In this document: positions 3,965 to 6,629 of the stretch, piece by piece
Numbering within the stretch: the stretch's first letter is position 1
Layout: every line of letters starts with the position of its first letter
Source: Alphaproteobacteria bacterium
GTDB lineage: Bacteria; Pseudomonadota; Alphaproteobacteria; Rhodobacterales; Rhodobacteraceae
Reading direction: 5' to 3'
DNA: 6,629 bases
Assembly: GCA_030424705.1 (NCBI GenBank)
Contig: JAUHWJ010000115.1
Coordinates: 1 to 6,629 of the forward strand
Made by a program: the position numbers and the translations under genes
Notes under the pieces: generated by a model
The model's input: the letters and a program-made list of their open reading frames with translations, nothing else
Database searches by the model: none
What the model was told of the DNA's origin: nothing

Positions 3965-5683
3965 ATGGCGCGCATCCTCATCACGTCCGCCCTTCCCTAT
4001 ATCAACGGGATCAAGCATCTCGGGAATCTCGTCGGTTCGCAGCTGCCGGCGGACCTTCACGCCCGCTACATGCGCGCCCGCGGCCACGAGGTGCTCTTCA
4101 TCTGCGCGACGGATGAGCACGGAACCCCGGCGGAGCTCGCCGCCGCGAAGGCCGGCGAGCCCGTGGCCGAATACTGCGCCCGCATGTGGCGCGTGCAGAA
4201 GGACATCGCGGACGGATTCCGCCTCTCCTTCGACCATTTCGGCCGCTCCTCCTCGGACCGGAACCGCCGCCTGACCCAGCATTTCGCGGAGCGGCTCTCG
4301 GCCGCGGGCCTGATCGACGAGGTAATGGAGCGGCAGGTCTATTCGAAGGCGGACGGCCGCTTCCTCCCCGACCGCTACATCGAGGGGACCTGCCCGAACT
4401 GCGGCTATGAGAAAGCCCGCGGCGACCAGTGCGAGAACTGCACCAAGCAGCTCGACCCGACGGACCTCATCAACCCCCGCTCCGCCATTTCCGGCTCCAC
4501 CGATCTGGAAGTGCGGGAGACGAAGCACCTCCATCTCCGCCAGTCCGCCATGCGCGCGCATCTCCGCGATTGGATCGACACGCGGGAGGGTTGGCCGGTC
4601 CTCACCACCTCCATCGCCCGGAAATGGCTGGATGACGGCGAGGGCCTGCAGGACCGGTCGATCACCCGCGATCTCGACTGGGGCATCCCCGTGCAAAAGG
4701 GGGAGAAGCCATGGCCTGGCATGGAGGGCAAGGTCTTCTACGTCTGGTTCGACGCCCCCATCGAATACATTGCCGCGACGGCGGAATGGGCGGACGCGCA
4801 CGGGCTGGGCGAGGATGGCTGGCGCCGCTGGTGGCGCGCGGATGAGGGCGCGGGCGACGTCCGCTACACGCAGTTCATGGGGAAGGACAACGTGCCCTTC
4901 CACACCCTCTCTTTCCCCGCCACGCTGATGGGCTCGGCCGAGCCGTGGAAGCTCGTAGACTACATCAAGAGCTTCAACTATCTCAATTACGAGGGCGGGA
5001 AATTCTCTACCTCCTCCGGCCGCGGCGTGTTCATGGACCAGGCGCTGGAGATCCTGCCCGCCGATTACTGGCGCTGGTGGCTTCTCTCCAACGTCCCCGA
5101 AAGCTCGGATTCCGACTTCACGTGGGAGAGCTTCCAGAACGGCGTGAACAAGGACCTGGCGGATGTGCTGGGCAACTTCGTCTCCCGCATCACCAAATTC
5201 TGCCGCTCCCGTTTCGGGGAGGCTCTGCCCGAGGGCGGCGCGCCGGGGCCGGAGGAGGCGGAGCTTGCGGCGGAACTGTCCCGGCGCCTTGCGGAGTATG
5301 AGCGTGCGATGGAGGCGATCGAGGTCCGCCGTGCGGCGCAGGCGCTTCGCGCGATCTGGGTCGCGGGCAACGAATATCTTCAGCGCGCCGCGCCCTGGAC
5401 GAAGATGAAGGAAAGCCCGGAGGAGGCGGCGATGATCGTCCGTACAGGCCTCAACCTCGTCCGCCTCTACGCCATCCTCTCCCGCCCCTTCATCCCGGAC
5501 GCTGCGGGCGCGATGCTAACCGCGCTCGGCCTGACGGAGAACGAACCCTGGCCGGAAAGCGCGGAGGCGGCGCTCGCCGCCCTCCCCTCCGGCCACGCCT
5601 TCACGACGCCGGACGTCCTCTTCGCCAAGCTGGACGACGAACGGCGGGAGGCGCTGGAGGCCCGCTTCGCCGGAAAGGGCTGA
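3965..5683 (+). CDS. metG: Methionyl-tRNA synthetase
   Basis: This class I enzyme charges tRNA-Met and initiator tRNA with methionine in the cytoplasm, using ATP. The catalytic Rossmann fold opens with [12 protein letters not shown], where HLGN (18-21) is the HIGH-type motif, followed by ATDEHGT (48-54). A single zinc knuckle of the E. coli type is seen as CPNC (143-146) and CENC (156-159). WFDAPIEYI (261-269) and MGKDNVPFH (305-313) are typical MetRS blocks. The KMSKS loop reads KFSTS (346-350). The anticodon-binding helical domain follows from about residue 385, including a conserved [14 protein letters not shown]. At 572 residues it lacks the C-terminal tRNA-binding (EMAPII-like) domain of the 677-residue E. 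coli enzyme; other Rhodobacterales enzymes, as I recall, are equally short, so this is not a truncation. The start has CGGAGG five bases upstream. It is divergent from the lipoprotein pair and probably monocistronic, with 79 bases to the next gene. Confidence 0.97.
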
Positions 5684-5701
5684 GCCGCCGCGTGCAGCCC
5701 T
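5676..5701 (+). terminator. Weak hairpin at the end of metG
   Basis: AGGGCTG (5676-5682), which includes most of the stop codon, can pair with CAGCCCT (5695-5701) to give a 7-base-pair stem with a 12-base loop. No T-run follows, so it is not a classical intrinsic terminator; it could slow polymerase or protect the 3' end, or be chance in GC-rich DNA. Confidence 0.2.
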
Positions 5702-5727
5702 GCACTCCCGCTCCACCCCGCGCCGCG

Positions 5728-5733
5728 CTATCT
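5728..5733 (+). promoter_or_regulatory. Candidate -10 element of the Popeye-like gene
   Basis: CTATCT within CGCTATCTG lies about 30 bases before the ATG at 5763, the same placement as the CGCTATAGCG element before metG. No good -35 hexamer is seen at 16-18 bases upstream. If used, the Popeye-like gene and the gene after it would form an operon independent of metG. Confidence 0.3.
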
Positions 5734-5762
5734 GCGGTTGAAAGACAACAGGCGAGGGCGGG

Positions 5763-6509
5763 ATGCAGGCGATCATGGCGGAGACTCTGGCGGGCGGCGG
5801 GTGGCTCCTCGCCTGCGCCACGCTGGCCTATATCCTCGGCTTCCTGTTCCGCGACCAGGCGCTTCTCCGGGCCCTTCTCCTGCTCGGCTCCGCCTTCTAC
5901 ATCGCCTATTACTACATGCGGCCGGAGCCGCTCTGGGGCGCGATCGCGGCGAGCCTCGCGATCAACGCCGCCAATCTCTTCGGGCTGCTGCGGCTTCTCT
6001 ACAGCCGCCATTTCACCATCCTCCCCGCCGCCTCCCGCCCCGTCTTCGCGGCGATGCGCGGGCTCCAGCCCGGCGAGTTCCGCGCGCTTATGCGTCTCGG
6101 CGAACCGGTGGAGCCCGCCCGCGCCCTGAAGCTGACGACCGAAGGCGTCACGCCCGAATATCTCTGGTTCGTCACCCGCGGCGAGGCCACGGCGGAAAAG
6201 GCCGGGCGCCGCTTCGCCATCCCGGAGATGACCTTCATCGGGGAAATCAGCTTCGTGCTGAAGGAGCCCGCCTCCGCCACCGTAGCGCTCGAAGCCGGGG
6301 GCGCCGCGATCCGATGGCGGAGGGGCCGCCTCTCCGCCGCCCTCCGCCGCGCGCCGCAACTCGAGCGCGCGGTGGAGGCCCTCATCGCGCGGGACATGGC
6401 GCGGAAGGTGGCGGACGGGATCCATATCGGCGCCGGCGCCCGGGAAACGGGCGCCCGCGAGGCTGGCGCTCCCGGTCCGCGCGGCTTATCTTCCGCGCAT
6501 GTCGCATGA
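5763..6509 (+). CDS. Popeye-like membrane protein: three transmembrane helices plus cyclic-nucleotide-binding-like domain
   Basis: A short N-terminus leads into three hydrophobic helices at about residues 12-29, 33-52 and 56-79, followed by a cytoplasmic domain at about 85-217. This order, and the local pattern (LYSRHF after helix three, LQPGEFRALM, ATAEKAGRRFAIPEMTFIGE, ALIARDMARKV at the end), matches the layout of animal POPDC proteins, which bind cAMP. FIGEISF (158-164) sits where a phosphate-binding cassette is expected, with the family's Gly-Glu pair (160-161). The canonical Arg of the PRAATV motif is absent: here the segment reads EPASATV. The last 30 residues are a Gly/Ala/Arg tail. 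GAGGG at 5754-5758 is a modest ribosome site; ATG 5775 is an alternative start. The 3' end overlaps the next gene by 11 bases. A generic CNBD/Crp-like sensor is the alternative reading. Fold assignment is from recalled patterns, not a search. Confidence 0.65.
   Translation: MQAIMAETLAGGGWLLACATLAYILGFLFRDQALLRALLLLGSAFYIAYYYMRPEPLWGAIAASLAINAANLFGLLRLLYSRHFTILPAASRPVFAAMRGLQPGEFRALMRLGEPVEPARALKLTTEGVTPEYLWFVTRGEATAEKAGRRFAIPEMTFIGEISFVLKEPASATVALEAGGAAIRWRRGRLSAALRRAPQLERAVEALIARDMARKVADGIHIGAGARETGAREAGAPGPRGLSSAHVA
6435..6455 (+). repeat. Perfect GC hairpin near the end of the Popeye-like gene
   Basis: GGCGCCCG (6435-6442) and CGGGCGCC (6448-6455) form a perfect 8-base-pair stem around a GGAAA loop. 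It lies inside the coding region, about 45 bases before the next start codon, and encodes a GARETGARE repeat. No T-run follows. It could influence coupled translation of the downstream gene, or be a by-product of the short direct repeat. Confidence 0.35.
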
Positions 6510-6629
6510 CGGCCTGATCCAGGAAATCGAGAGCTGGCTGATCGACCGGTCGCTGGGCGAGCCGGATATAGAGCGGCTCTTCGAACAGCTCTGCGCCCGT
6601 CTCGCCGGCATCGGCGTGCCGCTCCAGCG
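6499..6629 (+). CDS. N-terminus of a probable class III adenylate/guanylate cyclase (cut by the right edge)
   Basis: Only 43 residues are visible, opening MSHDGLIQEIESWLIDRS and continuing with DIERLFEQLCARLAGIGVPL. The pattern of a Trp-Leu helix, an LFEQLC-RL helix and a GVPL turn is how many alphaproteobacterial adenylate/guanylate cyclases begin, ahead of a catalytic domain that here would lie outside the window; no catalytic residue can be seen. The ATG lies 11 bases inside the end of the Popeye-like gene and has no ribosome site of its own, so translation probably depends on ribosomes finishing that gene; TTATCT just upstream could alternatively act as a -10 for a nearly leaderless transcript. 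The other ATG (6506) meets a stop after three codons. The reading frame is convincing; the cyclase identity is inferred from a short match and could be another signalling protein with the same N-terminal helices. Confidence 0.55.
   Translation, partial: MSHDGLIQEIESWLIDRSLGEPDIERLFEQLCARLAGIGVPLQ

Follow-up and report, generated by a model that had tools for sequence, protein, structure and literature searches.

A Popeye-like membrane protein gene overlapping a class III cyclase gene in Rhodobacteraceae: a candidate local cyclic-nucleotide receptor

Popeye proteins are animal heart-and-muscle proteins. The locus described here raises the question of what a bacterial membrane protein that resembles them is doing next to, and partly within, the gene for a class III nucleotide cyclase, and whether the two products act as a sender and a receiver. 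The window, that is, the whole stretch of 6,629 nucleotides that was analysed, is a complete contig (G000:C631) from a genome, G000, assembled in 654 contigs and 66.6% complete. The contig ends soon after the second gene begins, so that no more than its first 43 codons can be read in the window. The reading that we consider best, to which we assign a probability of about 45%, is that the Popeye-like protein, which carries a cyclic-nucleotide-binding domain (CNBD), serves as a local membrane receptor for the messenger of the adjoining cyclase, and that this messenger is probably not cAMP.

The features of the locus are collected in Table 1. The initial annotation had reported an open reading frame at 5763–6509 and its 11-nt overlap with the next ATG; both are present in the sequence, and the overlap recurs in L006, a locus on contig JAUIDE010000042.1 that is near-identical (98% at the protein level) and has the same gene arrangement. 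There the Popeye-like frame occupies 6001–6747 and the complete cyclase gene 6737–7975, encoding 412 amino acids. The two Popeye-like frames differ at 22 of 248 codons, 17 synonymously and five non-synonymously, which fits a protein-coding gene under constraint; this codon constraint, together with the existence of homologues, rules out a chance frame. A consensus scan of 5600–6629 found neither a terminator nor a sigma-70 promoter, which says little since shuffled sequences yield only 0.5 and 0.1.

Table 1. Positions of the features of the locus within the window
Feature	Position	Strand	Basis or remark
metG (methionyl-tRNA synthetase)	3965..5683	+	tblastn; upstream of the cyclase locus in other genera too
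Gap between metG and the Popeye-like gene, 79 nt	5684..5762	+	consensus scan
Popeye-like membrane CNBD protein gene	5763..6509	+	248 aa, ATG to TGA; family searches
Three predicted membrane helices (residues 13-28, 32-52, 58-82)	5799..6008	+	AlphaFold2 secondary structure; moderate hydropathy peaks
CNBD, residues 89-217	6027..6413	+	cytoplasmic side assumed
Phosphate-binding-cassette motif FIGEISFVLKEPASATV, residues 158-174	6234..6284	+	Glu161 present; Ala170 in place of the canonical Arg
Overlap of the Popeye-like and cyclase genes, 11 nt	6499..6509	+	L006 shows the same overlap
Class III cyclase gene, first 43 codons (contig end cuts the gene)	6499..6627	+	ATG at 6499

An AlphaFold2 model of the window protein (pLDDT 89.6) places a short helix (residues 2–10) ahead of the three putative membrane helices, and a CNBD fold after them. 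The hydropathy peaks of the helices are moderate (19-residue means of 1.4–1.7). The three-helix protein with a CNBD-like domain envisaged at the outset is thus borne out by prediction, the CNBD being further supported by profile and structure matches, and the predicted architecture is that of animal POPDC/BVES proteins, in which three N-terminal membrane helices are likewise followed by a CNBD. Formal membership of the Popeye family (PF04831), against which a search had been suggested, fails for the window protein, which scores 19.1 bits against a cut-off of 28.1, and holds for some of its relatives. Three of six others pass (P0003, 28.6; P0015, 32.2; P0040, 31.4 bits) and three remain below (P0001, 18.1; P0061, 14.5; P0070, 22.1 bits). 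A further scan saw seven of ten relatives pass at 44.1–55.9 bits (P0264 highest, at 55.9), while P0060 (25.8) and the second Popeye-like copy of G000 itself (L041, 25.1) fell short and P0278 gave no match. In P0015 (Pikeienuella sp.) and P0040 (Pseudaestuariivita sp.), at 31–32 bits, the profile spans both the helices and the CNBD, as it does in P0264 and in the match from genome G120, and 56 of the 74 Popeye-like family members reach it at E 0.001. Across 398 genomes of the phylum, PF04831 reached E 0.001 in only four and exceeded its cut-off in one (G120, 35.7 bits), and in G000 it detected the second copy and missed the window's gene, so the model picks up this family poorly. Even so, the precomputed Pfam annotation already tags many database relatives with it, so that the Popeye-like family as such is no novelty there. 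The ordinary CNBD profile, PF00027, gives the window protein 16.1 bits (cut-off 27.5) and is reached at E 0.001 by 63 of the 74 relatives. The structure matches listed for the window protein include no POPDC structure; they hardly cover the membrane part and exclude nothing.

There are also differences from the animal proteins. Besides falling below the PF04831 cut-off, the window protein lacks the POPDC motifs DSPE and FQVT, each found in 0 of 74 aligned Popeye-like sequences (DSPE also in 0 of 83 more distant relatives), and keeps the Gly-Glu of ordinary CNBDs; its gene, moreover, adjoins that of a cyclase, and the likeness is to the PF04831 model rather than to animal sequences compared directly. 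The window protein is probably a distant relative of animal Popeye proteins, and the label Popeye-like is fair. Position 170, where a canonical CNBD has the arginine that contacts the phosphate, is Ala in 61, Ser in 13 and Arg in none of the 74 aligned sequences, and the cassette pattern was matched in 66 of the 83 distant relatives with Ala at the arginine position in all 66. Since the arginine is missing throughout the 74, the CNBD may bind a nucleotide weakly, in another manner or not at all.

The downstream gene had been taken, from its N-terminus, for that of a probable class III cyclase. The family assignment stood, in that the complete copy in L006 scores 26.2 bits with PF00211 (cut-off 21.9), but the 43 visible codons are the start of an N-terminal part and not the catalytic domain. 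Residues 65–412 of G000's own cyclase lie on a second contig (G000:C207:3-1046) and are 98% identical to the L006 protein, residues 1–43 being those on C631. The N-terminal part looks GAF-like, judged from the order of its predicted secondary structure, and no tool named GAF. The class III hallmarks, namely two metal-binding aspartates (D226 and D270) and the Asn/Arg pair (N346 and R350), are present in 30 of 30 aligned cyclases. The substrate-specifying residues depart from those of adenylate cyclases, lysine with aspartate or threonine, and are Asp and Ser instead: position 266 is Asp, Glu or Asn in 19, six and five of the 30 sequences, and position 339 is Ser in 29 and Thr in one. Seventeen of 21 cyclase loci scanned for this pattern were readable, and comprise nine K-T paralogues (32–38% identical), two T-S paralogues and six orthologues with D/E/N-S. 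The pair includes an acidic residue, but as Asp with Ser and not as Glu with Cys or Gly, the E-C and E-G combinations described for known guanylyl cyclases in the accessible part of the literature (PMC4215837). The best solved relative of the family by profile, Cya2 of Synechocystis (2w01; E 1.5e-23), is a guanylyl cyclase in which an acidic residue also replaces the ATP-specifying lysine, although its pair is E-G where that of the present cyclase is D-S, and the N-terminal part of the cyclase lies outside the match.

The inference is that the D-S pair points away from cAMP and perhaps towards cGMP. It should be set against the guanylyl reading that the pair is neither E-C nor E-G and that two T-S paralogues also lack the lysine. 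Animal Popdc proteins do not bind cGMP. cAMP itself appears doubtful as the messenger, because the cyclase lacks the ATP-specifying lysine while the CNBD lacks both the phosphate arginine and the DSPE and FQVT motifs of POPDC.

The genus is represented by four genomes, and the genes are adjacent in three (G000, G198 and G199); G198, whose locus we take L006 to be, is 98% alike to G000, so that two of the three are near-identical. In G199, where identity is about 46% for the Popeye-like protein and 67% for the cyclase, the Popeye-like reading frame is broken into two parts, and 57 nt lie between it and the cyclase gene, with no overlap. The split frame (L092 6267–7136 and 6827–7021) reflects either a frameshift or an assembly error. 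The fourth genome, G101, the complete one of the genus, has the cyclase (74%). Its whole genome gives no Popeye-like match at E 1e-10, and relaxing the threshold to E 0.001 adds just two segments of an 836-residue frame with CNBDs, so that the gene is absent rather than moved; the interval between metG and the cyclase (L090 1804–5000) is occupied by an IS4/5-family transposase gene (PF13340), a methyltransferase-domain gene and others.

Among 394 family genomes, nearly all of different genera, seven have a close cyclase (E 1e-90), and two of these seven belong to this genus. The five closest outside it (G162, G265, G278, G320 and G340) have no Popeye-like neighbour within 5 kb, and only G320 among them has a Popeye-like gene (E 1e-10), on another contig. 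Two weaker, interrupted cyclase copies (G122 and G124; L065 and L057) are likewise flanked by no Popeye-like gene. The cyclase has metG upstream of it in four of the five outside-genus genomes, at about 61, 140, 1350 and 2480 nt between tblastn ends; it is adjacent in G340 and G265 (about 61 and 140 nt), separated by other genes in G278 and G320, and was not found within the cyclase region of G162. In L084 and L097 the metG homologue contains the domains PF09334 and PF19303. Approached from the other side, class III cyclases lie within 5 kb of two of 24 Popeye-like regions in other genera, these being part of those found, and both of the cyclases carry CHASE2 domains. All adjacency counts were taken from six-frame scans because the gene caller chose antisense frames at several loci. 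The two CHASE2 cyclase genes (L078 6330–8456 and L085 1948–4137) belong to two other genera, and L085 has a second Popeye-profile match on the opposite strand.

These counts reject wide conservation of the pair, and with it a pairing across Rhodobacterales, which the initial annotation had proposed to test: the pair is lineage-restricted. Matches to the A1 profile occur in 99 of 198 family genomes, many of them being other CNBD proteins. Six of 73 Popeye-like database matches apparently share a genome with a cyclase match (among the best 120 of 862), so that further pairs are probable. In a quick tree of 113 rows, all ten pair-labelled rows fall in one group of 33 (SH-aLRT 95), which mixes them with unlabelled rows whose neighbours are mostly unseen, and the pair label needs eight changes. 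Since the cyclase follows metG in several genera with no Popeye-like neighbour, the cyclase locus looks older than the pairing; insertion of the Popeye-like gene into the metG-cyclase interval is probable for this lineage, as is its later loss in one species. It is most likely that the Popeye-like protein thereby joined an older cyclase as a local sender-receiver pair. The cyclase does not need this partner, being present alone in the five outside-genus copies, in L057 and L065 and in G101, and this persistence implies that it probably has other uses.

In the proposed mechanism the N-terminal part of the cyclase would sense an input and the catalytic domain would make a cyclic nucleotide, putatively cGMP or another whose base contacts the acidic residue. 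The 11-nt overlap is predicted to couple translation of the cyclase to that of the Popeye-like protein on the same message, so that the membrane-held CNBD could read the nucleotide near its source, and ligand binding may then change the contact of the membrane helices with a membrane partner.

The likeliest alternative to this receptor reading is that the two genes are chance neighbours, the Popeye-like gene having been inserted behind metG while its product and the cyclase work in separate pathways. In its favour are the metG-cyclase loci of G265 and G340, which have no Popeye-like gene, and of G278 and G320, which have other genes in the gap, along with the 22 of 24 other-genus Popeye-like regions in which the 5 kb on either side hold no class III cyclase. 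That most of the Popeye-like genes examined have no cyclase nearby counts against the receptor reading too, as does the G199 locus, with its split frame and no overlap; a position behind metG may mean no more than membership of a housekeeping operon. The genus also has numerous further class III cyclases and CNBD proteins, so that the nearest gene need not be the partner. Against mere proximity, two lineages with about 46% identity between their Popeye-like proteins have retained the pair, one of them with an 11-nt overlap, both products come from cyclic-nucleotide families, and in G101 the Popeye-like gene is missing and not relocated. On balance we regard chance neighbourhood as unlikely.

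Overlapping genes often encode proteins that are in contact. This general tendency speaks for a second alternative, that the Popeye-like protein serves as membrane anchor and regulator of the cyclase, its CNBD fold having lost ligand binding and its role being to bring in the cyclase or gate it by touching it directly. Also in favour, all 74 aligned sequences have Ala or Ser where the phosphate arginine is expected, and the cyclase, whose 19-residue hydropathy means peak at 1.37 and so show no strongly hydrophobic stretch, would depend on an anchor in order to act at the membrane. However, Gly160 and Glu161 are kept in 73 and 72 of the 74 sequences, which argues for a working pocket; the equivalents of these residues touch the ligand in ordinary CNBDs, according to the available text of PMC11224242. 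Furthermore, the cyclase persists in other genera with no Popeye-like partner, and animal POPDC proteins are described, in the portions of the sources at hand, as binding cAMP despite a non-canonical cassette (PMC4973886, PMC6952887). We consider this anchor-and-regulator role quite unlikely.

A Pycsar-type anti-phage system, in which a pyrimidine cyclase (PycC) signals to a membrane CNBD effector (PycTM), is very improbable here, as neither the PADLOC models, read against five paralogues as a yardstick, nor the specificity residues support it. The parts list is the same, with a cyclase and a CNBD receptor of which one kind has a membrane domain (PMC11224242, as far as its accessible text goes), and PycC models do match both the cyclase (67.0 bits with PDLC00734 and 64.0 with PDLC02367) and a relative of it, P0086 (71.5 and 70.4 bits). 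Two shorter PycC models, PDLC02367 and PDLC00766, also rank the cyclase above the five paralogues scanned (64.0 vs 29.1–56.8 and 50.4 vs 21.6–39.2), and the best solved match of its 69-residue catalytic segment is the cUMP synthase 7r65 (E 1.5e-6). Yet PDLC00734, the model with the strongest match, gives the paralogues 62.5–98.0 bits, with two K-T ones (82.1 and 98.0) above the cyclase, so that a PycC match is not diagnostic. Among the specificity residues described for BcPycC, Tyr50, Asp94 and Arg97 (PMC11224242, accessible text), only the first has its counterpart in the cyclase, as Tyr224, while the others correspond to Val268 and Ala271 in our own numbering of the 7r65 alignment; none of the AnPycC set is present, Phe60, Lys104 and Phe109 being Tyr224, Val268 and Leu273. 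The residue two before the second metal aspartate, where BcPycC Asp94 aligns, is charged in both BcPycC and AnPycC but Ile in 21 and Val in nine of 30 cyclases. On the effector side, P0194, P0276 and P0070 among the six scanned Popeye-like proteins match PycTIR or TIR-effector models through their CNBDs at E 0.001 or better, and none of the six matches a PycTM-named model; the window protein matches only a TIR-effector model, again through its CNBD (E 0.0072). The identified neighbours (metG, an ABC transporter-like gene and a TPR gene) recur in other genera, with no obvious defence island, and this housekeeping-type setting together with the results above makes a defence role for the pair unlikely.

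Cyclase-plus-receptor neighbours are already known, from Pycsar and from XC_0250/XC_0249 of Xanthomonas campestris; the present locus has, as we read it, a Popeye-type membrane receptor beside the cyclase. XC_0250 and XC_0249 are adjacent genes for a class III guanylate cyclase and a cNMP-binding GGDEF protein, for which cGMP synthesis and binding have been demonstrated (PMC3770947, in the part available). In that account the receptor has a GGDEF output domain and no Popeye-like membrane part is described, and the cyclase has TPRs but no Asn/Arg pair, a feature that the present cyclase retains. Among the titles and abstract openings listed in searches of open-licence papers, no description of a bacterial Popeye protein or a Popeye-cyclase pair could be recognised. 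A broader proposal, which we put forward as speculative and rather unlikely, is that a bacterial branch of Popeye proteins acts as membrane receptors for a cyclic nucleotide distinct from cAMP, of which cGMP is the likeliest, and that a co-translated class III cyclase with exchanged ATP-specifying residues produces this nucleotide. If true, Popeye proteins would be an old prokaryotic receptor class and not an animal invention. A small bacterial relative next to a candidate cyclase would offer a genetically simple system for testing ligand, pocket and membrane output, in a little-studied bacterial group, and the locus also offers a class III cyclase subgroup with a D-S substrate pair.

Several further Popeye-like genes were observed. 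A second, distant copy, from a different part of the tree, is found at L089 3047–3733 (G000:C570) and L098 5004–5690 (G198:C198), with no class III cyclase within the region examined. In three genera (L074, L079 and L081) the Popeye-like genes share two neighbour clusters, glpX-like and recJ-like by eye, which suggests a fixed neighbourhood that does not include a cyclase. Genome G184 has tandem Popeye-like genes (L081 4995–5705 and 5811–6911), and the database proteins P0022 and P0025 are a candidate further tandem pair. A very divergent Popeye-like gene (25% identity) at L084 5031–5711 in G001 lies two genes downstream of metG with a TPR gene between them, in a region with no class III cyclase. 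Finally, downstream of the paired genes in L006, 9043–9360 encodes a small protein of 106 amino acids with two halves that are similar by eye, and relatives of it are found at the corresponding locus in G101 and G199.
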